Source of the DNA: Acidisoma sp. PAMC 29798 | GTDB taxonomy: Bacteria; Pseudomonadota; Alphaproteobacteria; Acetobacterales; Acetobacteraceae | Reading direction: 5' to 3' | Assembly: GCF_030252425.1 (NCBI RefSeq) | Contig: NZ_CP126994.1 | Coordinates: 744,001 to 808,000, forward strand | DNA: 64,000 nucleotides | Shown: positions 21,822-58,607 of the stretch, piece by piece | Layout: each line of letters begins with the position of its first letter | Numbering within the stretch: the first letter of the stretch is position 1 | Translations under genes and position numbers: made by a program | The notes under the pieces: generated by a model | The model's database searches: none | Seen by the model: the letters and a program-made list of their open reading frames with translations, nothing else | Told to the model about the DNA's origin: nothing

Positions 21822-22097
21822 ATGACCTTTAACGAACTCATCGATCACGTGGCTAAGACGACCGGTATGGGCAAGGAAGGCGTCAAGAAGATTCTCGACA
21901 CCACTGTGCATACCCTGGTCGAGCAGGCGAAGGCCGGCGAAGACGCCGTCATCGCCGGCTACGGCCAGTTCAAGGTGAAGGACACCCCGGCTCGCCAGGG
22001 TCGTAACCCCGGCACCGGCGCGACCATCGAAATCGCCGCCGCCCGCAAGGTTGCCTTTACGCCCGCGAAGGCCCTCAAGGACGCCTTGAAGGCCTAA
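21822..22097 (+). CDS. hup: HU-family DNA-binding protein
   Basis: A 91-residue histone-like protein. It begins MTFNELIDHVAKTTGM, has the dimerisation helices, a GYGQFKVKDTPARQGRNPGTG arm region (given here only as the GYGQF and RQGRNPGTG segments) and ends in a Lys/Ala-rich helix (TPAKALKDALKA). HU bends DNA and helps compact the nucleoid. ATG 21822 was chosen because the upstream extension to 21759 encodes no HU sequence. A long inverted repeat follows 14 bases after the stop and may end the transcript. Confidence 0.93.
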   Translation: MTFNELIDHVAKTTGMGKEGVKKILDTTVHTLVEQAKAGEDAVIAGYGQFKVKDTPARQGRNPGTGATIEIAAARKVAFTPAKALKDALKA

Positions 22098-28963: not shown

Positions 28964-31378
28964 TCAGGCACCTTTGGGTGGCGTGAACAGCGCAGCCTGC
29001 ATGCCGGCGATGGCATCCTCGGAAAAGCGGTCCATCGCCGCCGGGCGGCCGAGCAGGTAGCCCTGCACCAGATCGGCACCCTGCGTGCGGATGATCGCAA
29101 GCTGATCCTCGGTTTCCACGCCCTCGACTGTGACGGTAAGCCCGAGGTTGTGGCCGAGTGCGATGATGGCCTTGACGATCGTCGTGGCTTCTTCCCGGTG
29201 GCCGAGGTCTGGCACGAAGGATTGGTCGATCTTGATTTTGTCGAAACGAAACAAGCGCAGATAGCTGAGCGCCGAATAGCCGGTTCCGAAATCATCCAGC
29301 GCCAGGCGGATGCCCATGCTCCGCAGGCTCGACAGGATTGTCACGGCCCGCGCGGCGTCATCGATAAAGACACCTTCGGTGATTTCGATTTCAAGACGCG
29401 CAGGATCGAGACCGGTGCGGGCGAGGGCGGCGGCGACGATCGCCGGCACATCCGACGTGCGAAACTGAATCGGGGAGACGTTTACGGCAACACCGCGCGG
29501 CACTGGCCATGATGCCGCCGCAGCGCATGCCGCATCGATCGTCCAATGGCCAATTTGGCTGATCGCGCCGCTTTCCTCTGCAAGGGGGATAAAAGCACCC
29601 GGCGAAATCAGGCCACTTTGGGGATGTCGCCAGCGCAACAGAGCCTCGAAAGACGGCACATCGCCGGTGTGGCAATTCACCACGGGCTGATAGACGAGTT
29701 CTAATTCCCCGCGCTGGCTCGCATCCCGCAGTTCCTGCTGCAATTGCCGGCGTTCGAGCGTGGCGTCATTGGTGGACGCCTCAAAAAAGCGGACCGAGCC
29801 AAGGGCCGCGTCCTTGGCCTGATCCACGGCGGCGGCGGCGGCGCGGAGAAGCGCTTCCGCATCATCACCGTCACCCGGATACATGGCGACTCCGATCGAG
29901 GCGCCGATGGAGATATGCGCCCCGTCGAACAGAATGGGCCGGTCAAGCGTCCCCAGCAGCCGGTTTGCGAAGGTCGAAACCCTGCCGGGCATCTCTGCAT
30001 GGGTCAGAACGATCGCGAATTCGTCCCCGCCGATGCGGGCCAGCGTATCCGTGGCGCGCAAGGCCTGTTTCAGGCGCTGGCCGACCTCGATCAGCACGGC
30101 GTCACCGGCGGCATGACCGACCACGTCATTGATCGGTTTGAAGCGATCGAGATTGAGATGCAGAACGGCGACGCTGGTGGAATCCTGAACCGCAGCCTGC
30201 ATGGCGCGGCCCAATCGCTCCCGCAACAGGAACCGGCCCGGAAGGTCTGTCAGACGGTCATGATGGGCAAGGTGCTCGATCCGCGCTTCGTTCCGTTTGC
30301 GCTCGGACAGATCCCGCAAAGCGATTGCCGTCGCGCCAGCGCCCTGGAACTCGATTCTGCGGCTAGAGAACTCGACCGCGACCTGCTTTCCGGTCGCGGT
30401 CGTAATCGCCATCTCCTCCGGCCAATTCTCCTCGACATCATCCATTTGGTCCCGAAGCAGGACAGGCACGCTGTTTTTGGCAAAGAGCCGTTCGATCGGC
30501 ATGCCGACGATCTCTTGAACGGGCATGCCGAACAGGCGCGCGCCCGCGCTGTTCACTTCAAGAACGATGCCATGGCGCAGGATCATCATGACTTCATGGG
30601 CGAGATCGTTGAGCACACGCATGCGGGTGAATTCCTGCATCGTGCGTTCTGCGAGATGCCTTTCGACGAGCGTCGCCGCCAGGCTGATCGCGAGCAGGAC
30701 TGCGCTGACCGCCGCCACCGCAAGGGCAAGAATGCCAGAACCGAGCACATTGCCGCCGGTCGGCAGAGCCGGGCCCGGCACGACCCGAAGAGCGGCCATG
30801 CCGATGAAATGAAGCGTGAAGACCGACAGGCCGAGCCAAAACGAGACTTCGATCTGGCGCAGGAGCGTCCCGGCATGTCGGGCGCGCCCCAGCGCCAACA
30901 TTGCAAGAGCAAGGCCGCATGCGATGGAAAGGGCGACACCTTCGTGGGAAAAGGCAAGATGTCCCGGCAGCCGCATCGCGCTGACGCCGGTATAATGCAT
31001 GCCGGCGATGGCGAGGCCGAGGATCGCGCCGCCCAAGACGACGCCGACAAGCCGCAAGGCGATCAGCCGCCAGACCAGGAACGCGATCAGCACGCCCCCC
31101 ACGGCGATGGCGATCGAGGCAACCGTCGTCCTCACATCATAAGCGATGGGCATCTGCCGCATGAAGGCGAGCATGGCAATGAAGTGCAGCGTCCAGATGC
31201 TGCAGCCGAATACGGCGGCGGCGGCGATGAGCCAGCTGATGGCGGCCCGCGCCGGAAGGGCCTGCGCCCGCGTGATGAGCGTGACGGTGGAAAAGCTGCC
31301 GAGGCCGCAGATCAGCGCCGCCACAAGGACAAGTCGAAGGTCATGGTCCCGAATGATGCACGTGATACCTTGATACAT
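28964..31378 (-). CDS. MHYT-PAS-GGDEF-EAL cyclic-di-GMP signalling protein
   Basis: An 804-residue membrane protein. Residues 1-240 form an MHYT sensor with seven helices and repeated motifs LHFIAML, MHYTGVSAM and LHFIGMAAL, thought to bind copper and sense oxygen, CO or NO. A PAS domain (about 255-365) follows, then GGDEF (about 375-535) with an intact IGGDEFAIV site, and EAL (about 545-795) with FEALLRWRHP, DDFGTGYSALSYLR and VEGVETEDQ. Both cyclase and phosphodiesterase sites look complete, so the net activity cannot be predicted. Its position between the nitrogen importer and the CO dehydrogenase locus does not itself show a link. Confidence 0.9.
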   Translation of the reverse strand: MYQGITCIIRDHDLRLVLVAALICGLGSFSTVTLITRAQALPARAAISWLIAAAAVFGCSIWTLHFIAMLAFMRQMPIAYDVRTTVASIAIAVGGVLIAFLVWRLIALRLVGVVLGGAILGLAIAGMHYTGVSAMRLPGHLAFSHEGVALSIACGLALAMLALGRARHAGTLLRQIEVSFWLGLSVFTLHFIGMAALRVVPGPALPTGGNVLGSGILALAVAAVSAVLLAISLAATLVERHLAERTMQEFTRMRVLNDLAHEVMMILRHGIVLEVNSAGARLFGMPVQEIVGMPIERLFAKNSVPVLLRDQMDDVEENWPEEMAITTATGKQVAVEFSSRRIEFQGAGATAIALRDLSERKRNEARIEHLAHHDRLTDLPGRFLLRERLGRAMQAAVQDSTSVAVLHLNLDRFKPINDVVGHAAGDAVLIEVGQRLKQALRATDTLARIGGDEFAIVLTHAEMPGRVSTFANRLLGTLDRPILFDGAHISIGASIGVAMYPGDGDDAEALLRAAAAAVDQAKDAALGSVRFFEASTNDATLERRQLQQELRDASQRGELELVYQPVVNCHTGDVPSFEALLRWRHPQSGLISPGAFIPLAEESGAISQIGHWTIDAACAAAASWPVPRGVAVNVSPIQFRTSDVPAIVAAALARTGLDPARLEIEITEGVFIDDAARAVTILSSLRSMGIRLALDDFGTGYSALSYLRLFRFDKIKIDQSFVPDLGHREEATTIVKAIIALGHNLGLTVTVEGVETEDQLAIIRTQGADLVQGYLLGRPAAMDRFSEDAIAGMQAALFTPPKGA

Positions 31379-33529: not shown

Positions 33530-34381
33530 TTATTTAGGGCGGGCATCGGTCGGGGCCAAATGGCTTGCGGCCCGCTGCGTCGGGCGCCGACGTTCCCTCA
33601 CGATCTCCGCCAGGATCGACAGCGCGATCTCCTCAGCCGTGACCGCACCGAGATCGAGCCCCGCCGGCGCATGCAGCGCATCAAGCCACGGGGCCGCGCA
33701 GCCTTCCGCCTGGAGCGCCGCCTTCAGCACCGCGACCTTGCGCGCGGAGCCGACGAAGGCGGTGTAGCGCGCGCCAGTCGCGAAGGCGGCCTTCAAAGCC
33801 TCAGAATCGCCACGGCCCTGGGTCGCGACGACGATGAACTCATCGGTGGTCGCCCGCGCGCCTGTATAGCCATCCGCCAGCGCCTCTGCGGCGGCAAAGG
33901 CCGCGTGATCCGTCGCCGGTGCTTCGATCGCCACCTCAAATCCCATCAGCGGCGCCAGGGTGGCGAGCGCCATCGCAACCGGGGAGGCGCCGCAGATCCG
34001 CAGGCGCGGCAACGGCAACACCGGTTCCACGAAGACGTCCATGGTGCCCTTGCTGGCGCAGAAGTTGCGCGCGAACTGCACGCCGTTTCGCGTCTCACCG
34101 GCTTCGACCTGGCTTTCGCGCAGCTGCTCCTCCGGCTGGACGGAGACGAGGCGCGGCTGGCCATCGGCCAGGGCGTCCTTGGCGGCACGCAGCACCGCGC
34201 CACGCGCGCAGCCGCCGCCGATCCAACCCGCACCGACTGTGCCATCCGCCAGGATCACCGCCTTGGCGCCGGCCTTGACGGCGGTGGCCGAGACCGTTCG
34301 GACCACGGTCGCGAGGGCATAGGGTTCGTGACGCCGCTTCATCGCGGCAATGACATCCGCCATGTCGGCCAGGACCGTCAT
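33530..34381 (-). CDS. coxF: XdhC family protein (CoxF-like)
   Basis: A 283-residue XdhC-family protein with both domains in one chain. The N-terminal part has LATVVRTVSATAVKAGAKAV and GWIGGGCARGAVL with the conserved GGC; the C-terminal part carries RICGASPVAMALATLAP, a Rossmann entry, and the ending VTAEEIALSILAEIV. Together with the split XdhC pair downstream, the cluster encodes two XdhC systems, as the coxF and coxI genes of Oligotropha do. It overlaps the cytidylyltransferase gene by four bases. Probable role: molybdenum cofactor handling for CoxMSL. Confidence 0.75.
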   Translation of the reverse strand: MTVLADMADVIAAMKRRHEPYALATVVRTVSATAVKAGAKAVILADGTVGAGWIGGGCARGAVLRAAKDALADGQPRLVSVQPEEQLRESQVEAGETRNGVQFARNFCASKGTMDVFVEPVLPLPRLRICGASPVAMALATLAPLMGFEVAIEAPATDHAAFAAAEALADGYTGARATTDEFIVVATQGRGDSEALKAAFATGARYTAFVGSARKVAVLKAALQAEGCAAPWLDALHAPAGLDLGAVTAEEIALSILAEIVRERRRPTQRAASHLAPTDARPK

Positions 34382-34995
34382 GGGCGATCCGCCAGCGCGC
34401 GGGCTTGCAGCGCCGCGTACTCGTCCGGCGTGTCGCAGTCCCTGATAAACGCCTCATCGCCCAGCTCGATTTTCGCGACGAGATCGGGATGGCTGTCGAT
34501 CAGTCTGCGGCAGCCGACATTCAGGCCGCCGTTGGCAATTTCAGGAATGTGGTGGGCTGCGAACATCACCGGGTTGCCGCGTGCCCCGCCGCTGAAGGGC
34601 ACGAAGATCGACTTTCCCGCCTCCGCCGTCGTGTAGGCGTCGCGCAGAGCGCGAAGATGGGCCGGCGTCAGCAAGGGCTGGTCGCCGAGCACGACCATAA
34701 CGGCCTGGCAGAATTCGGTCAGGGCGCGGATACCGGTGATCACCGATCCCGGCTGGCCCTCGGCATAGGCCTCGTTATGGACGAAGCGCACCGGCAATCC
34801 CTCCAGCGCCGTGACCACATCCCCCGCCCGATAGCCTGTGACGACGACGACCTCCGCCGGTGGAATGCCGAGCACCGCGCGCACCACGCGCCGCACCATC
34901 GGTTCCCCACCGACATCGAGCAGCAGCTTGTGCCGCCCCTCCATGCGCGAGGAGAGGCCGGCGGCGAGGACCACGGCGGAAACGATCGGTGTCAC
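34378..34995 (-). CDS. mocA: MocA-type molybdenum cofactor cytidylyltransferase
   Basis: A 205-residue nucleotidyltransferase of the MobA/MocA group. The start VSAVVLAAGLSSRMEGRHKLLL is the nucleotide-binding motif (cited as VVLAAGLSSRMEGRHKLLL). VVLGDQPLLT carries the metal-binding aspartate, and GARGNPVMF and DCDTPDEY follow. MocA adds CMP to molybdopterin to give MCD, the cofactor form used by CO dehydrogenase and other molybdenum hydroxylases. It lies between coxE and the CoxF-like gene with 4-base overlaps on both sides, so the cofactor is probably finished by this operon. Confidence 0.85.
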   Translation of the reverse strand: MTPIVSAVVLAAGLSSRMEGRHKLLLDVGGEPMVRRVVRAVLGIPPAEVVVVTGYRAGDVVTALEGLPVRFVHNEAYAEGQPGSVITGIRALTEFCQAVMVVLGDQPLLTPAHLRALRDAYTTAEAGKSIFVPFSGGARGNPVMFAAHHIPEIANGGLNVGCRRLIDSHPDLVAKIELGDEAFIRDCDTPDEYAALQARALADRP

Positions 34996-36161
34996 AGCAC
35001 CTCCAACAACGACCCGAGCGCTGCCTCCAGAGTCTTCAACGAATTGGCTGCTGCGAAGAGATCGACATGGGGCAGGGCTTCCCGGATACCGCGCGCCAAA
35101 GGCTCATAGCGCGGATCGGCCTTGGCCGGATTGAACCAGGCGATGCGATGCGCGCGCCGCGACAGGGCCGCCATTTCGGCGCCGAGCACACCGGCCGGTC
35201 CGGTATCGTAGCCGTCACTCGCGATGATGACGACGGTACGCGAATTGACCAGCCGGCCATGCTGCCGGTTGAAGGCGGCCAGGCATTCGCCGATACGCGT
35301 GCCGCCGGCCCATCCGGCCGACAGCAGTTGCAGGCGTTCCTGCGCCCGCCATGGGTCGGGATCGCGGAGCGCATCCGACACATGGGTGAGTTGGGTGTGG
35401 TACAGGAAGACGTGGACATCGCCGAGTTCCAGGGCCAGCGCCCGCGCGACGCGCAGGTAGAAAAAGCTGACCAGGGACATCGACCGGCTGACATCGAGCA
35501 GCAGAACCAGGCGTGGCCGGACGCGGCGCGGCACCCGGAACCGTAAATCGTTGGGCGACCCGCCGCTCGCGACGCTCAGTCGCAAGGTGCGCCTCAGGTC
35601 GATGCGGCTGCCCCGCGCGCGGCTTTGCTCCCGCCGTGTGCGCAAGCGCTTGATCCGGCTGGCGAAGCTGCGAATGGCGGTTTCGATCGCATAGGTTTGC
35701 AGCTTGTCGTTCAGCGATCGGAAATCGGCATCCGCGATGCTGCGGGCGGCACTGGCGCCATCGCGCGCCGTGTCGTCACCGGGCAGGCCGGTGTCATCCT
35801 CCGCCTCGTCTCGCTGTAACACAGGCCCGGCGCGGCCGGCCTGGCTGCCGGCTTCATCCGAGAAGGCCACCTGTCCGGCCCCGCCGGCGCGGCTTTCGAC
35901 CAGCGCCTTGCGATTGGGCGGCATCCAGTAGCTGTCGAACAGGTCGTCGAACCGCGCCCAATCATCGGCGCGGGCACAGAGCAGGCTGCGCCAACCCCAG
36001 CGCAGCGGTTGCTCATCCATGATGCCAGTGACGGTCGCGAGCGCCACCGCGTCCTCATTCTCCCGGATGCCGATGACGAAGCCATTGCTTCGCAAGGTCG
36101 CCACGAAGCCCGCCATGCGAATGGTGGCGGCGGTTCCGGCCTCCGTCACAGTGAGGGCCAT
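34992..36161 (-). CDS. coxE: CoxE, VWA-domain accessory protein
   Basis: A 389-residue CoxE-type protein. The C-terminal half is a von Willebrand A domain with a MIDAS motif, LVLLLDVSRSMS (DxSxS), and a later SDGYDTGP. CoxE acts with the AAA ATPase CoxD in building the [CuSMoO2] centre of CO dehydrogenase. A flexible acidic stretch near residues 110-140 precedes the VWA part. It starts five bases after coxD ends and overlaps mocA by four bases. Confidence 0.88.
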   Translation of the reverse strand: MALTVTEAGTAATIRMAGFVATLRSNGFVIGIRENEDAVALATVTGIMDEQPLRWGWRSLLCARADDWARFDDLFDSYWMPPNRKALVESRAGGAGQVAFSDEAGSQAGRAGPVLQRDEAEDDTGLPGDDTARDGASAARSIADADFRSLNDKLQTYAIETAIRSFASRIKRLRTRREQSRARGSRIDLRRTLRLSVASGGSPNDLRFRVPRRVRPRLVLLLDVSRSMSLVSFFYLRVARALALELGDVHVFLYHTQLTHVSDALRDPDPWRAQERLQLLSAGWAGGTRIGECLAAFNRQHGRLVNSRTVVIIASDGYDTGPAGVLGAEMAALSRRAHRIAWFNPAKADPRYEPLARGIREALPHVDLFAAANSLKTLEAALGSLLEVL

Positions 36162-36166
36162 GCGAC

Positions 36167-37063
36167 CTAGCTTGCCAAGGCCAGTAGGCGGTCCAGCACC
36201 ACGGGCTCTATGGCGCGGACATCCTCATGCGTCTTGAGGAGCGCCGACAGGGTTTCGCGGATGCGGTCCGGCCCCGCTTCGTCGAGGCTGGAGATGCCGA
36301 GGCCGAGGATGGCGGCCGCCCAGTCCAGCGTTTCCGCCACGCCGGGCTGCTTCTTGAGGCCTTGTTGGCGCAGAGCCTGGGCGAATTCCACGATTTGCCG
36401 ACCGAGCCGATCGGCGATGCCGGGAAGCCGCAATTGCACGATCGCCAGCTCCTTCGCGAAGCTCGGATAGCTGAGATAATGATAGAGGCAGCGGCGGCGC
36501 AGCGCGTCCGACAATTCGCGCGTGGCGTTGGACGTCAAGACGACCAGCGGAATGCTGGTCGCGCGGATCGTGCCCATTTCGGGAATGCTGACCTGGTAGT
36601 CGGACAGCACTTCCAACAGAAAGGCTTCGAAGGCCTCATCGGCGCGATCGACTTCGTCGATGAGCAGAACGGGCGGCACAGCCTGCGTCAAAGCCTCCAG
36701 CAGCGGGCGCTTGAGCAGGTATTTTTCCGAGAACAGTGCGTCCTCCTCCACCCGGCTTGCACCCGCCGTTTCGGCCACGCGAATGGCAAGAAGCTGGCGC
36801 TGGTAGTTCCATTCATAAAGGGCGTGGTGAACGTCCAGCCCCTCGAAGCATTGCAGACGGATGAGCGGCGTGCCGCGCGCCCGTGCCAATGCCTTAGCAA
36901 TTTCCGTCTTGCCGACGCCGGGGTCGCCCTCAACCAGCAAAGGGCGCCCAAGATCGGCCATCAGCAGCAGTGTCGCTGCCAGGTCCCGCTCGGTGATATA
37001 GCCTGAGGCTTCGAGGCTGGTTTGCATGGCCGCGATGGCGGCCATCCGGGTCTCGGCTGTCAT
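36167..37063 (-). CDS. coxD: CoxD, MoxR-type AAA+ ATPase
   Basis: A 298-residue MoxR-class AAA+ protein: Walker A VEGDPGVGKTEIAKAL, Walker B PPVLLIDEVDRADEAFEAF, sensor 1 LVVLTSNATRELSDALRRR with the arginine finger. In Oligotropha, CoxD is needed to add sulfur and copper to the molybdenum centre of CO dehydrogenase, working with the VWA protein CoxE, which is the next gene. It overlaps coxG by ATGA (37060-37063). It is expected on the cytoplasmic side of the membrane. Confidence 0.9.
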   Translation of the reverse strand: MTAETRMAAIAAMQTSLEASGYITERDLAATLLLMADLGRPLLVEGDPGVGKTEIAKALARARGTPLIRLQCFEGLDVHHALYEWNYQRQLLAIRVAETAGASRVEEDALFSEKYLLKRPLLEALTQAVPPVLLIDEVDRADEAFEAFLLEVLSDYQVSIPEMGTIRATSIPLVVLTSNATRELSDALRRRCLYHYLSYPSFAKELAIVQLRLPGIADRLGRQIVEFAQALRQQGLKKQPGVAETLDWAAAILGLGISSLDEAGPDRIRETLSALLKTHEDVRAIEPVVLDRLLALAS

Positions 37064-37695
37064 GTCGCCTTTGTGCGACGAAACAGGCCGCCGACAAAAT
37101 CCTTGATCACCGCCCAGACCAGGGACAGCGCATTGAGCTTGATGTCGGCGGCCGGCGCCGGCGCCTGCACGGCGACAACCGGGGTCGGAGCTGCAGCGCT
37201 CGTGGTGGTGCTCATCGCGGCGACCGGCTGTGCCGCCTGGATGGCGGCGGCATGTGCACCGAGATTGGTGAAGAATTTCCCGAGCAGCACTTCCGACACG
37301 CTGTTCATCAGCCGCGCGCCGAAGGCCGCGACCTTGCCCGTGACCGAAACCTCGGACTTGCCGCTCAGGCTCGATCCGCCATCTGGCAGGGCCTGCACCC
37401 AGGCATGCAGATCGAGCGACGCGCCCGAGGTGCCGCCGGTATCCGAGCCGGTGCCGATGATATGCATGCGGCGCTCGACCGGATCGGCCGAGGCCACTTC
37501 GATATTGCCTTTAAAGCTGACCGTCGCCGGCCCGAGCTTGACGGTGACGGTGCCCTTGTAATGGGTCTCGTCCACCCGCTCAGTGATCTTCGCGCCCGGC
37601 AGGCAGGCGGCAATGCCTTCCATGTCCTTCAGCATTTCCCAGGCGAGATCCGGGGTCAGCGGCAGGTCGAGGCTTTTGTCGATGGTGATTTTCAT
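37060..37695 (-). CDS. coxG: CoxG, SRPBCC-domain CO dehydrogenase membrane partner
   Basis: A 211-residue protein with a START/SRPBCC domain in the first 150 residues (begins MKITIDKSLDLPLTPDLAWE; includes CLPGAKITERVDETHYKGTV and SVTGKVAAFGARLMNSV as shorter segments of the family), an Ala/Pro linker, and a hydrophobic C-terminal tail (LNALSLVWAVIKDFVGGLF). CoxG recruits CO dehydrogenase to the membrane, and members of the family bind quinone. It lies five bases after coxL and overlaps coxD by four bases. Confidence 0.88.
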   Translation of the reverse strand: MKITIDKSLDLPLTPDLAWEMLKDMEGIAACLPGAKITERVDETHYKGTVTVKLGPATVSFKGNIEVASADPVERRMHIIGTGSDTGGTSGASLDLHAWVQALPDGGSSLSGKSEVSVTGKVAAFGARLMNSVSEVLLGKFFTNLGAHAAAIQAAQPVAAMSTTTSAAAPTPVVAVQAPAPAADIKLNALSLVWAVIKDFVGGLFRRTKAT

Positions 37696-37700
37696 GAGGA

Positions 37701-40109
37701 TCAGCCTGCGATGTTCAGGGCCCGCAGCTGCTGCCAGGTGCGGTAGGAGTTGTGCGGCATGCCGGTATGGGTGACGCCGAGATGCGCGAAGGCATCAACC
37801 ACCGCATTGCTGAAGCAGGGGATGGAGCCGACATGCGGTGACTCGGCCACGCCCTTGGCGCCGATCGGGTGATGCGGCGACGGGGTGACGGTGAAATCCG
37901 TCTCCCAATGCGGCGTTTCCATGGTGGTCGGCAGGAAGTAATCCATCAAGGTGCCGCCGAGCACATTGCCTTGCTCGTCATAGGGCAGCTCCTGCCCGAA
38001 GGCGACGGCGAAACCTTCCGTAAGCCCGCCATGGATCTGGCCTTCGATGATCATCGGGTTGATGCGCGTCCCACAATCATCCAGGGCGTAGAAGCGACGG
38101 ACCTTGATTTCGCCGGTGCGCTTCTGGATGTCGAGCACCGTGAGATAGGCGCCGAAGGGGAAGGTGAAGTTCGGCGGATCGTAATAATCGACCGCCTCCA
38201 GACCCATCTCCATGCCTTCGGGCACGTTGTTATACGCGGCCCAGGCGATTTCCTTCATGGTCTTCGCACGCGCCGGATCGCCCTTGACGCGAAACTGGTC
38301 GAGGTCGAATTCCATATCGTCGGGCGAGACTTCCAGCAGATGCGCCGCGATCTTGCGCGCCTTCTCGCGGATCTTGTGGGAAGCGCGGGCAATGGCCGCC
38401 CCTGCGACCGGTGTCGATCGCGAACCGTAGGTACCGAGACCATAGGGCGCGGTTGACGTATCCCCTTCCTCGACATTGATCAGCGACGCCGCGATGCCGG
38501 CCTCGCTGGCAATGATCTGGGCATAGGTGGTCTGGTGGCCTTGGCCTTGGCTGATGGTGCCCATGCGCGCGATGGCCGAGCCATCGGGATGGACGCGGAT
38601 TTCACAACTGTCGAACATGCCGATGCCCAGGATGTCGCAGCTTTTGGACGGGCCGGCGCCGACAATCTCGGTAAAGGTGGTGATGCCGATGCCCATGAGC
38701 GTCGGGCAATTGGGGTCGGCGCGCTTGGCCGCCTGTTCGGCACGCAGCCCGTCATAATCGACGGCCTTCATCACCTTGCGCAGGGCGGGCTCGTAATCGC
38801 CGGAATCGTAGTCGAGACCGAGCGCCGAATGATACGGGAACTTGTCTTTGGTGATGAAGTTCCGCAGCCTGATCTCGGCTTTGTCGATGCCGAGTTTCTG
38901 CGCCAGGACATCGATCATACGCTCGATGATATAGACCGCCTCAGTGACCCGGAAGGAACAGCGGTAGGAGACGCCGCCGGGAAACTTGTTGGTATAGACG
39001 CCATCGACGGAGACATGGGCGTTCGGGATGTCATAGGATCCCGTGCAGACATGGAACATGCCCGCCGGCCATTTGGTGGGATCGGCGCAGGCATCGAAGG
39101 CCCCGTGATCGGCCAGAACATTGACGCGCATCGCTTTGATCCGCCCGTCCGTGTCGGCGGCCAATTCGCCGGTCATCCAATAGTCGCGTGCGAAGGCCGT
39201 GGTCGTCAGATTCTCGTTGCGCGATTCGATCCACTTCACGGGACGCCCGAGCACGATGGAGGCGACAATGGCGGTGACATAGCCTGGATAGACGCCGACC
39301 TTATTGCCGAACCCACCACCGATATCGGGAGAGACGATGCGGATCTTCGATTCTGGAATGGAGGAGAGCAGCCCCACAACGGTGCGCACCACATGCGGCG
39401 CCTGGGAGGTGATCCATACCGTGAGATCGCCCCGGATGGCATCGTAACTCGCAACGCAGCCGCAGGTTTCCAGCGGGCAGGGATGCACGCGCGGATAGAG
39501 CATATCCTGCTTCACCGTCACGGCCGCGTTCTCGAAGGCGCGGTCGGTGCGGTCCTTGTCGCCGATCTGCCAGTTGAAGATGTGGTTGGCGTGGCGCCGC
39601 GCACCATGGGCGCCGACATCCTTGCCCGCGAGATCCTCGCGGATCACCGTCGCATCGGCGTCCATCGCCTTATGCGGATCGACGATGGCCGGCAATTCTT
39701 CGTATTCCACTTCGACCAGTTCGGCCGCATCTGCCGCGACATAGCGGTCATCCGCGACGACAAAGGCCACTTCCTGGTTCTGGAAAACGACCTTGCCGTC
39801 CGCCAGAACCGCCTGCACGTCGCCGGCGAGCGTCGGCATCCAATGCAGTTTCAGCGGCTTCAGATCTTCGGCCGTCAACACCGCATGCACGCCGGGATGG
39901 GCCTTGGCCTTCGAGGTATCGATTGAGATGATGCGCGCATGGGCATAGGGGCTGCGCACCATGACGCCGAACAGCATGCCGGGCAGGTGGATATCATCCA
40001 CATATGTGCCACGGCCCTGAATGAAACGCGGGTCTTCGCGCCGCTTGCGCGAGCAACCGATGCCTTCGAGCCGCTCGAGGCGGCTGAGGTCGGGCGTGAT
40101 TTCGTTCAT
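37701..40109 (-). CDS. coxL: Aerobic carbon monoxide dehydrogenase large subunit (form I)
   Basis: An 802-residue molybdopterin subunit. The active-site loop reads SYRCSFR (381-387), with Cys384 at the place of Cys388 of Oligotropha, which binds the copper of the [CuSMoO2] centre. This CSFR form marks true CO dehydrogenases (form I), as opposed to the GAGR loop of form II homologues. The first loop position is Ser where Ala is usual. Catalytic Glu756 lies in GAKGVAESPHVG. Cofactor segments such as GGGFGNKVGVYPGY and QGQGHQT are present. Its start overlaps the coxS stop by one base. The enzyme oxidises CO to CO2 and feeds electrons to the quinone pool. Confidence 0.95.
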   Translation of the reverse strand: MNEITPDLSRLERLEGIGCSRKRREDPRFIQGRGTYVDDIHLPGMLFGVMVRSPYAHARIISIDTSKAKAHPGVHAVLTAEDLKPLKLHWMPTLAGDVQAVLADGKVVFQNQEVAFVVADDRYVAADAAELVEVEYEELPAIVDPHKAMDADATVIREDLAGKDVGAHGARRHANHIFNWQIGDKDRTDRAFENAAVTVKQDMLYPRVHPCPLETCGCVASYDAIRGDLTVWITSQAPHVVRTVVGLLSSIPESKIRIVSPDIGGGFGNKVGVYPGYVTAIVASIVLGRPVKWIESRNENLTTTAFARDYWMTGELAADTDGRIKAMRVNVLADHGAFDACADPTKWPAGMFHVCTGSYDIPNAHVSVDGVYTNKFPGGVSYRCSFRVTEAVYIIERMIDVLAQKLGIDKAEIRLRNFITKDKFPYHSALGLDYDSGDYEPALRKVMKAVDYDGLRAEQAAKRADPNCPTLMGIGITTFTEIVGAGPSKSCDILGIGMFDSCEIRVHPDGSAIARMGTISQGQGHQTTYAQIIASEAGIAASLINVEEGDTSTAPYGLGTYGSRSTPVAGAAIARASHKIREKARKIAAHLLEVSPDDMEFDLDQFRVKGDPARAKTMKEIAWAAYNNVPEGMEMGLEAVDYYDPPNFTFPFGAYLTVLDIQKRTGEIKVRRFYALDDCGTRINPMIIEGQIHGGLTEGFAVAFGQELPYDEQGNVLGGTLMDYFLPTTMETPHWETDFTVTPSPHHPIGAKGVAESPHVGSIPCFSNAVVDAFAHLGVTHTGMPHNSYRTWQQLRALNIAG

Positions 40110-40630
40110 CAGAGGGAAACCTCGGCCATCAGGGGATGTGACGTCTCAACCACTTCGCCGCGCAGCTTGCGGGCGGCGTATTGGATCGCCTTGATGATGT
40201 TCTGGTAGCCGGTGCAGCGACAGAGATTGCCCGCCATCCAGTAGCGGATTTCCTCCTCCGTCGGATCGGGGATTTCCTGCAGCAGGCGATAGGCGCGGGT
40301 GATCATGCCAGGCGTACAGAAGCCGCATTGTAGGCCGTGCTCCTGCATGAAGCCCTCCTGCAAGGCATGCAGCTGTCCGCCCTTGGCGAAGCCCTCGATC
40401 GTCAAAACCTGGGTCTCTTCGCACTGCACGGTCAGGATGGTGCAGGATTTGACGGACTGGCCGTCAAGATCGACGGTGCAGGCGCCGCAATGCGTGGTTT
40501 CGCAGCCGATATGCGGGCCGGTATGGGCGAGCTTGTCGCGCAAGGTATGGATCAGCAGCTCGCGCGGCTCGACCAGAACATCGACGGTGGACCCGTTGAG
40601 CGTGAAGCTGACGGCGGTCTTCTTGGCCAT
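40109..40630 (-). CDS. coxS: CO dehydrogenase [2Fe-2S] small subunit
   Basis: A 173-residue small subunit with two [2Fe-2S] clusters: ligands [15 protein letters not shown] plus the cysteine in SVKSCTILT, and [12 protein letters not shown] with [11 protein letters not shown]. It passes electrons from the molybdenum centre in CoxL to the FAD in CoxM. It sits between coxM (14-base gap) and coxL (1-base overlap), giving the M-S-L order of the Oligotropha enzyme. Length is usual (166 in Oligotropha). Confidence 0.95.
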
Positions 40631-40644
40631 GGGTGTGCTTCCTT

Positions 40645-41511
40645 TCAGGCGGCGCAGCGCAGCAGCGCCGCACGCAGCGCGCGCTCGACCATCTGGCCCG
40701 CCATGGCGCGCTTGTACTCTTCGTCGCCGCGCAGATCGGCGGCCGGCTCGCAGGCTTCCATCGCATGGCGCCCGGCTTCGGCAATGGCCGCATCATCGAC
40801 GGTCTTGCCCATGAGCGACGCCTCGGCCGCATCGGCCCGCATCGCGGCCGGCGCCACATTGGTGAGGGCGATCGACACCTCAGCGCAGACACCGCCTTCC
40901 AGGCGCAGCACAACGGCGGCGGCGGCGGTCGCGTAATCACCGGTCTTGCGTTTGAGCTTCGCATAGGAGGCGCCGCTTCCGGCCGCTGCCTTGCGAATGC
41001 GAATCTGCGTCATCACCTCGTCCGGCTCCATCGCCGTCGCATAGGTGCCGAGGAAGAAATCAGCGGCAGGCACGATACGTTCCCCGTTCGGGCCGACCAG
41101 GACGAAACTCGCCCCCAAGGCCAGCATGACGGCGGGATGATCGTTTCCGGGGTCGCCATGCGACACGTCACCGCCGATGGTGCCCTTGTAACGCACCTGA
41201 GGGTCGGCGATCTGCCGCGCCGTTTCAACCAGCAGGGGCAGATGCTCGGCGAGCAGGGCGGAGGCGACGATGTCGTGCTCCGTCGTCATCGCGCCGATGT
41301 GGATTTCATCGCCGCTCATGACGATTCCGCACAGCTCTTTGACGCGGCGCAGATCAATCAGATGATCGGGCGCCGCGAAGCGCAGCTTCATCATTGGCAG
41401 AAGACTGTGACCACCGGCCAGAAGCTTGGCCTGGTCGCCATGCTCACTCAAAAGGGCAATGACGGCCTGAAGTGTATCAGGCGCGTGATAGGCGAACGGA
41501 CGCGGGATCAT
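40645..41511 (-). CDS. coxM: CO dehydrogenase FAD-binding medium subunit
   Basis: A 288-residue flavoprotein subunit with FAD motifs [10 protein letters not shown] and [17 protein letters not shown], and the late [18 protein letters not shown] segment. ATG 41511 ([11 protein letters not shown]) was chosen over 41523: a strong GGGAGGA (41515-41521) lies between the two ATGs and can only serve the inner one, and 288 residues equals the length of the Oligotropha protein. As first gene of the cox operon it is preceded by the three-repeat operator at 41589-41636. Confidence 0.93.
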
Positions 41512-41588
41512 CGATCCTCCCATAGCTTAGTCTTTTTGGTCGTGGGATCAGGCTGGCACCCGGTCTTCGCGCTGTGCAACGGCTTTTG

Positions 41589-41636
41589 CGCCAAACCACC
41601 TGAGCGGCGCATGAAACGGGTCTGTGGTCGCGTGAA
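41589..41636 (-). promoter_or_regulatory. RcoM-type operator: three TTnnnG direct repeats, 21-bp spacing
   Basis: Read toward coxM on the minus strand, the repeats are TTCACG (41636-41631), TTCATG (41615-41610) and TTGGCG (41594-41589), each exactly 21 bases from the next, i.e. on one face of the helix. A triplet of TTnnnG repeats is the known binding pattern of RcoM, a LytTR-type CO sensor. No fourth repeat follows in register on either side. A -35-like TTGCAC (41579-41574) comes just downstream. The proximal repeat is 78 bases from the coxM ATG. Confidence 0.8.
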
Positions 41637-41752
41637 AGAGACCGCCGGGTCCTTGCGACATCGGTCGAACCTTCGTACCGTCATCGAACAGGGAGCGGCA
41701 CAGCCTCAACGGCACCCCTCAATCCAAGCGGCTCTCTGGGAGGGGATATTGC

Positions 41753-42556
41753 GTGAAGCGCGTGCTGGATAAAACGCCGCCGGAACCAAGCTTTCAGCAC
41801 AAGCTGGAACAATTTAACCCAGGTATTGTCTGGCTGGATGCCGAACGCCGAGTGACGGCGATGAACGATGTCGCGATCCAGGTGCTGCGGCCAGCGGCGG
41901 AGCCCGGACTGGGCGTACCGCTCGATGACATGTTCGGCGTCGATGTGCTGATGCTGCATCCGCAAAAAAGTCGCGAGAAGATTGCCTTCCTGTTGGGCAC
42001 AGGCGGCTATGGCGTTGCGGCCCATGGCGACAGATCGCCGCCGCCGCAGGCGATGATGATCAACATCCCAGACAGAATGCTGATGATCAAGGTGTCGCAG
42101 ATGGTGGCGGCGGACGGCACTGTCGGCACCTGCATGATCTTCTATGATTTGACGGATGTGACGACAGCGCCTCGCGCGGCTGGATATAGCGGCGACACAA
42201 CGGGTGTCGAGCCGGCGCGCTTGCTGTCACGCATTCCGGTGTATCGACACAATAGAATCATGCTCGTGGACGTCAAAGAGATCGGCCGTTTGGAAGGCGA
42301 CGGGCATTACACCACCATCGTCGGCACGGGAGATCGTTACCTCTCCAATCTGTCGCTGTCCGTTCTGGAAAGCCGGCTCGATCCGCAGCGTTTCATGCGC
42401 GTGCATCGCAGCCACATTGTCAATCTCGATTACGTCTCGGAAATCATCCGCGAGGATGATGGCTTCCTCGTCGCCTTGCAGGAGCCGCTGGGGCCGCCGG
42501 TGCCGGTCAGCAAGCAAAAGCTCGCAGCCCTGAAGGAGCGGTTCGGGCTGGTTTAG
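41753..42556 (+). CDS. rcoM: RcoM-type CO-sensing PAS-LytTR transcription regulator
   Basis: A 267-residue single-component regulator, the same length as Burkholderia xenovorans RcoM-1. Residues about 15-135 form a PAS domain with LHPQKSREKIAFLL, where His69 fits the proximal haem ligand, and MMINIPDRMLMIKV, which supplies candidate distal methionines (Met101/102). The C-terminal LytTR domain (about 165-265) has VKEIGRLEGDGHYTTI and FMRVHRSHIVNLDYV. It is divergent from coxMSL and should activate it when CO binds the haem. The GTG start follows GGGAGGGG by seven bases. The only cysteine is Cys127, so the thiolate ligand used by ferric RcoM-2 appears to be missing. Confidence 0.88.
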   Translation: MKRVLDKTPPEPSFQHKLEQFNPGIVWLDAERRVTAMNDVAIQVLRPAAEPGLGVPLDDMFGVDVLMLHPQKSREKIAFLLGTGGYGVAAHGDRSPPPQAMMINIPDRMLMIKVSQMVAADGTVGTCMIFYDLTDVTTAPRAAGYSGDTTGVEPARLLSRIPVYRHNRIMLVDVKEIGRLEGDGHYTTIVGTGDRYLSNLSLSVLESRLDPQRFMRVHRSHIVNLDYVSEIIREDDGFLVALQEPLGPPVPVSKQKLAALKERFGLV

Positions 42557-58319: not shown

Positions 58320-58607
58320 TTAGGACGACGTGGCGGGGGACATCGGCGAGGTCAGTTCCTTGCCATTCAGCATATCGGCCGAATGATCGGCGCCGGACGG
58401 GCCATTCATGTCCATGGGCTTGCCGGAATGGGCCATCATCTTGTGGTGGGCCATCATCATCTTGTGGTGCATCATCGGCTTCTTCATGCCCATTCCCATG
58501 CTGCTGGCGGGGGCAGGTGCGGCCGGCGTGGTCGACTGCGCCCAGGCGGATGCGGAACCGAGAAGGGCGACGGCGCAGGTCGCCGAGAGGAGCCAGGTCG
58601 TTTTCAT
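58320..58607 (-). CDS. Methionine/histidine-rich exported protein
   Basis: A 95-residue protein with a signal peptide (MKTTWLLSATCAVALLG..., cut near SAWA-QS). The mature part is a short Ala/Pro/Ser stretch, then a block of Met and His with repeats KKPMMHHKMMMAHHKMMAH, and an acidic tail ending SPMSPATSS. Such Met/His clusters bind copper or silver in periplasmic metal proteins, so metal handling is an inference. ATG 58607 was chosen since GGAGA lies just upstream and gives a clean signal peptide; the frame to 58751 adds only charged sequence. No known family recognised. Confidence 0.75.
   Translation of the reverse strand: MKTTWLLSATCAVALLGSASAWAQSTTPAAPAPASSMGMGMKKPMMHHKMMMAHHKMMAHSGKPMDMNGPSGADHSADMLNGKELTSPMSPATSS

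Follow-up and report, generated by a model that had tools for sequence, protein, structure and literature searches.

A predicted RcoM operator of three TTnnnG repeats between rcoM and coxM in Acidisoma sp. PAMC 29798

The RcoM footprints of Kerby and Roberts (2012) are said to comprise two regions, each with three TTnnnG repeats 21 bp apart, and this arrangement is reportedly conserved elsewhere. The part of the literature that we could consult gives the RcoM1 operator triplet as TTCNNGCA, with spacers of 12-13 bp, and describes a related case in Afipia carboxidovorans OM5, where CoxC, a LytTR regulator of the cox genes and a membrane MHYT sensor, binds three TTNNNGCN repeats that lie 18-21 bp apart and overlap the -35; CoxC represses, and the repression is relieved by CO (PMC11347149, in part). 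The Fe(II) heme of RcoM has His and Met as its ligands, of which CO replaces the Met, and the title of a reference cited in the same excerpt describes RcoM-2 as cysteine-ligated (PMC9670170, in part). RcoM-derived CO scavengers are under development, according to the accessible part of another source (PMC11160397).

We analysed a stretch of 64,000 nucleotides (here, the window) from the 4.99 Mb genome of Acidisoma sp. PAMC 29798, in which a preliminary description had pointed to a 21-bp triplet of TTCACG, TTCATG and TTGGCG on the strand that reads into coxM, beside a gene for a LytTR-type CO sensor. The triplet is present as described (Table 1). Its repeats start at 41636, 41615 and 41594 of the minus strand, a 21/21 spacing that equals two helical turns, and they sit in the 241-bp gap between rcoM and coxM, reading towards coxM. 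All three fit the tighter pattern TTNNNGC (TTCACGC, TTCATGC and TTGGCGC). We believe that the triplet is very probably the operator of the adjacent RcoM, from which CO-bound RcoM would activate coxMSLGDE.

Table 1. Features of the rcoM-cox region, in window positions
Feature	Position	Strand	Remarks
rcoM, divergent PAS-LytTR CO sensor (predicted)	41753..42556	plus	GTG start 41753; 267 aa
Putative rcoM promoter	41653..41681	plus	-35 TTGCGA 41653-41658, -10 TACCGT 41676-41681, 17-bp spacer
Repeat 1, rcoM-side, TTCACG then C	41631..41636	minus	from sequence; matrix site
Repeat 2, TTCATG then C	41610..41615	minus	spacing to repeat 1 exactly 21 bp
Repeat 3, TTGGCG then C	41589..41594	minus	exactly 21 bp from repeat 2; adjoins putative -35
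Putative -35 of PcoxM, TTGCAC	41574..41579	minus	TTG at repeat 3 +15; inferred promoter
Putative -10 of PcoxM, CAGCCT	41550..41555	minus	18-bp spacer; weak consensus match
Shine-Dalgarno GGAGG of coxM	41516..41520	minus	upstream of ATG 41511
coxM, CO dehydrogenase FAD subunit	40645..41511	minus	Pfam FAD_binding_5, CO_deh_flav_C (run from ORF start 41523)
coxS, iron-sulfur subunit	40109..40630	minus	domain search
coxL, catalytic subunit	37701..40109	minus	TIGR02416, 1435 bits, cutoff 991
coxG	37060..37695	minus	PF06240
coxD-like AAA ATPase	36167..37063	minus	AAA domain; name by position and domain
coxE	34992..36161	minus	VWA_CoxE

Repeats of this kind might arise by chance in a GC-rich intergenic region, and some counts lean that way. 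The strict TTnnnG pattern at 21/21 occurs four times in the window, three of them outside the gap, against 0.20 expected from shuffles, and arbitrary equally spaced repeats are about as common in shuffles as in the gap: a blind search of the gap for XYnnnZ repeats at one equal spacing of 15-30 found 2, against 0.96 (sd 0.97; 300 shuffles), which is not significant. The remark in the preliminary description that the triplet was found independently of any database therefore carries no weight. What makes the site persuasive is its match to an operator described before, together with its conservation; in a blind search it does not stand out. When the 241-bp gap was shuffled 20,000 times with its dinucleotides preserved, the exact TTnnnG triplet appeared on either strand in 0.1% of cases, or in 0.7% when spacings of 20-22 bp were allowed. 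The TTNNNGC triplet has a single occurrence in the window, that of the rcoM-coxM gap, even with spacings of 20-22 bp. The other strict triplets, which lack the GC extension, lie at 22043-22090 and 58420-58488; they possibly reflect chance or codon periodicity (21 bp corresponds to seven codons).

We then scored these sequences with a three-repeat matrix whose training set was 38 sites, taken from 22 of the 23 betaproteobacterial rcoM-coxM gaps and none of them from Acetobacteraceae. Sites were the best non-overlapping ones, at score thresholds of our own choice (24, then 20 bits), and the 38 training sites were selected by the very matrix that they built, so that the independent test is that of the six Acetobacteraceae gaps. 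Operator counts leave out a partial gene (L030) and loci that duplicate the window or another locus (L001, L031-L035, L038, L040); two CoxC-type loci (L036, L037) and four distant ones (L039, L041-L043) also stand outside them and were scanned separately. The window triplet ranked first among 127,878 window positions, scoring 18.7 bits where the next independent site scored 5.6, and beyond the gaps at least 10 bits were reached at only 4 of 408,024 positions from 29 sources, the highest being 17.6. In the other five Acetobacteraceae loci (L002-L006) the best scores were 15.0, 22.2, 10.6, 16.2 and 7.2 bits, and in all six the best score was the top site of its own source. The numbers of gap shuffles per 1000 that matched or exceeded these scores were 0, 1, 0, 2, 1 and 16 (window, then L002-L006). 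The 7.2-bit site of L006 is out of register, and the matrix scored L005 best at 20/21.

A lack of conservation in related cox loci would have contradicted the preliminary description, but matrix sites were present in 22 of the 23 betaproteobacterial ones: two sites in 16, one in six and none above threshold in L008. The spacings of the 38 sites were 21/21 (17), 21/20 (16), 20/20 (3) and 20/21 (2). In the 16 gaps with two triplets, those of L011 and L023 included, both triplets read to coxM; the coxM-proximal site is 21/20 in 12/16 and the distal one 21/21 in 13/16. The Acetobacteraceae carry one triplet per gap, whereas 16/23 betaproteobacterial loci carry two. Conservation within Acetobacteraceae holds for repeats 2 and 3, which in the alignment fit TTnnnG at exactly 21 bp in 6/6 gaps, and fails in part for repeat 1, which departs from the pattern in L002 (CTCACG), L004 and L006 and conforms to it in the other three gaps (the window, L003 and L005). 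Among distant RcoM loci (33-43% identity), L039 and L043 gave 27.6 and 25.6 bits, both with 20/20 triplets beside the RcoM genes (at about 1422-1462 and about 1391-1431), and L041 and L042 only 14.0 and 11.5 bits. With the matrix rank, the conservation in relatives and, as described below, a conserved TTG at a constant distance, a chance origin of the window repeats is hardly credible.

A search for further targets was carried out with two models. The first (R1), a sequence-only one built from all 44 sites with that of the window among them, did not recover the window site in either the genome or the window, probably because Burkholderia spacer sequence dominates the model. Its matches, 14 elsewhere in the genome (E 0.08 to 9) and a single weak one within the window (29721-29758; 12.5 bits, E 0.013), were dropped. 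The second (R2), from 11 of the 44 sites, all 21/21, gave the window site an E of 2.8e-4, this site being itself in the training set, and found eight other places in the genome, all with E of 0.4 or more (150 of 2189 candidates scored). These searches showed no further RcoM target in this genome, where weak ones may exist.

The regulator gene encodes an RcoM, as judged from its sequence and a structural model, which supports the RcoM reading of the preliminary description. Its C-terminal LytTR domain (residues 168-264, PF04397) was found with E 7.6e-23. Pfam gave no PAS match and no MHYT domain was matched in the protein, nor did a sequence search of the PDB at E 0.01 return a relative. An AlphaFold model (16-sequence alignment, pLDDT 77.9) matched LytTR structures and PAS domains, among them the heme-PAS structures of Aer2 (6ceq, E 2.2e-4) and FixL (8js6, E 4.9e-4); since LytTR takes the C-terminal part, the PAS fold is presumably N-terminal. 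By alignment, H69 and M101 are the equivalents of His74 and Met104 of RcoM-1 from Paraburkholderia xenovorans LB400, in a numbering that we assume to be counted from His74 and anchored on the motif HPEKSR. We take Cys94 to ligate the ferric heme in the LB400 RcoMs studied so far, but not to define an RcoM; it is present in 23/23 betaproteobacterial rows (L007-L029) and absent in 6/6 Acetobacteraceae; in distant rows it is absent in L039, L042 and L043 and present in L041. L004 and L006 have Gly as the aligned residue and the other four (the window, L002, L003 and L005) have His, an assignment that leans on the alignment because the loop (before SPPP) varies in length, and none of the six Acetobacteraceae RcoMs has a Cys in that loop. 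Similarly, Cys127, present in 21/23 betaproteobacterial rows, is absent in 6/6 Acetobacteraceae and replaced by Val in the window.

RcoM-like matches (E 1e-20) were found in 8 of 397 sampled Acetobacteraceae genomes, our own included; two of these were of the CoxC type, leaving six with RcoM. Within the genus, three of five sampled genomes have RcoM, and the same three have a CoxL of the window's type, a co-occurrence in favor of the operator reading. At E 1e-30 the class sample gave 2/385 and the phylum sample 5/398, again with our own genome, and among 72,556 plasmid records three carried RcoM (Caballeronia and Paraburkholderia). The closest relatives of the window RcoM in the genome collection searched, both at 79% identity, are those of Acidisoma cellulosilyticum (L002) and of isolate G5_19 (L003), which has been reclassified as Acidisoma according to the available part of the source (PMC10715153). 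In a tree of 33 rows, the six Acetobacteraceae RcoMs grouped together (100/99), separately from the Burkholderiaceae rows, with a long-branch warning and with L019 not resolved from this group. A recent transfer from Burkholderiales was considered, and the tree held no sign of it. In two other Acetobacteraceae genomes, a CoxC-type MHYT-LytTR gene lies directly upstream of coxM (L036, 445-1590; L037, 162-1316), and their gaps hold two TTCGnG repeats 20 bp apart plus a degenerate third.

The operator precedes the minus-strand genes in the order coxM, coxS, coxL, coxG, coxD-like and coxE. The start of coxM is most likely the ATG at 41511 (MIPRPF..) and not the ORF start at 41523, and it is conserved as (A/G)TGAT in 28/28 loci (L002-L029). 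Beyond coxE there is an XdhC/CoxI-family gene (33530-34381) and, about 3.6 kb away, a gene for an MHYT-PAS-GGDEF-EAL protein (28964-31378, minus), which had no close counterpart in four genus relatives (best 41%, with the MHYT part absent); MHYT is the CO-sensing domain of CoxC.

Downstream of repeat 3, a TTG stands at +15 in 6/6 Acetobacteraceae, and an A at +40 and a T at +44, positions 2 and 6 of the putative -10, are equally invariant. None of 20,000 mononucleotide shuffles put TTG at one offset in at least five of the six sequences, which are related and so not independent. In the betaproteobacterial coxM-proximal sites TTG lies at +14 in 18/22 and at +15 in three, and is missing in L027. 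Since the TTG is fixed while the coxM start lies anywhere between 83 and 167 bp from repeat 3 in the six Acetobacteraceae, the operator appears to be locked to the promoter and not to the gene start. A consensus promoter scan found nothing in the gap, neither PcoxM nor the rcoM candidate; activator-dependent promoters are commonly missed by such generic scans, and the promoter gains no support from that.

The same distances bear on whether the site mainly serves rcoM, which would then regulate itself from the divergent promoter, or acts to the same extent on both promoters. A CTTGCG-N17-TAnnnT layout pointing into rcoM is conserved beyond repeat 1 in 3/3 Acidisoma loci, as autoregulation would have it, but its distance from repeat 1 varies (15, 11 and 22) against the coxM-side TTG fixed at 15 in 6/6; moreover, CTTGCG was not found in the three Acidocella/Acidiphilium loci and the repeats read towards coxM, so that we regard a main or equal role at rcoM as unlikely. 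A weak terminator-like stem (41643-41660, minus), directly upstream of repeat 1, overlaps the candidate rcoM promoter; one was found against a shuffle mean of 0.2, and it is probably due to chance.

Activation of the cox operon, the reading that we favor, would proceed as follows. CO would bind to the ferrous heme in the PAS domain of RcoM and take the place of its ligand Met101, the counterpart of Met104 in RcoM-1. RcoM subunits would then fill all three repeats with their LytTR domains, which would line up along one side of the helix. Repeat 3 closely precedes a weak -35, and the bound protein would recruit RNA polymerase to PcoxM and so switch on coxMSLGDE. Alternatively, the site could act by CO-relieved repression. 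CoxC of A. carboxidovorans, with a similar TTNNNGCN triplet and a LytTR domain of its own, is a repressor in the consulted part of the source (PMC11347149), and repeat 3 of the window is near the putative -35. However, no MHYT domain was matched in the window regulator, whose sequence is that of an RcoM, and the putative -35 (TTG at +15) lies outside the repeats while the CoxC operator overlaps its own -35; repression is accordingly very unlikely here.

The RcoM triplet layout is already published, and the Acetobacteraceae site is a further example of it, in acid-loving bacteria. The new details, which come from sequence comparison, appear to be the single triplet (against two in 16/23 betaproteobacterial loci) and an RcoM without Cys94 in 6/6. 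Our search found no report of RcoM in Acidisoma, Acidocella, Acidiphilium or Acetobacteraceae, a thin search with subscription journals mostly outside it, and the accessible part of a paper on Acidisoma and CO dehydrogenase does not mention RcoM (PMC10715153). We tentatively suggest, with more doubt than conviction, that Acetobacteraceae carry a reduced RcoM switch, in which one triplet, set at a constant distance from one cox promoter, is combined with a sensor that has naturally lost Cys94 to His or Gly; if so, the oxidized heme would be ligated differently, and the redox gate of the LB400 proteins would be changed or absent. A matrix blind to acidophilic Alphaproteobacteria extends the RcoM operator rule to them from Betaproteobacteria, and the comparison suggests that the constrained features are the spacing of 21 bp and how far the site lies from the promoter. 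RcoMs that lack Cys94 by nature are available for comparison in work on the heme ligand switch, as well as on CO scavengers derived from RcoM.

Among the closest known systems is that of RcoM-1 in P. xenovorans LB400, where the rcoM-coxM gap likewise holds three direct repeats with a TTnnnG core, at intervals of about 21 bp. The layout claimed for the window agrees with the published triplet and spacing as far as the consulted part of the source goes, since each window repeat has 5/6 of the fixed letters of TTCNNGCA and the spacers are of 13 bp (PMC11347149). The LB400 loci in our set (L011, L023) show triplets too, but two in each gap where the window has one, and their third repeat is TTCGGGAAA and that of the window TTGGCGCAA. 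The window RcoM shares with RcoM-1 and RcoM-2 of LB400 (56% and 54% identity) the predicted PAS-LytTR layout and the equivalents of His74 and Met104, and differs from both in having His at the position of Cys94 and Val at that of Cys127. With CoxC, the locus has in common a similar TTNNNGCN triplet and a LytTR regulator, whereas the MHYT domain, by which CoxC is described in the available part of that work (PMC11347149), is absent from the regulator of the window.
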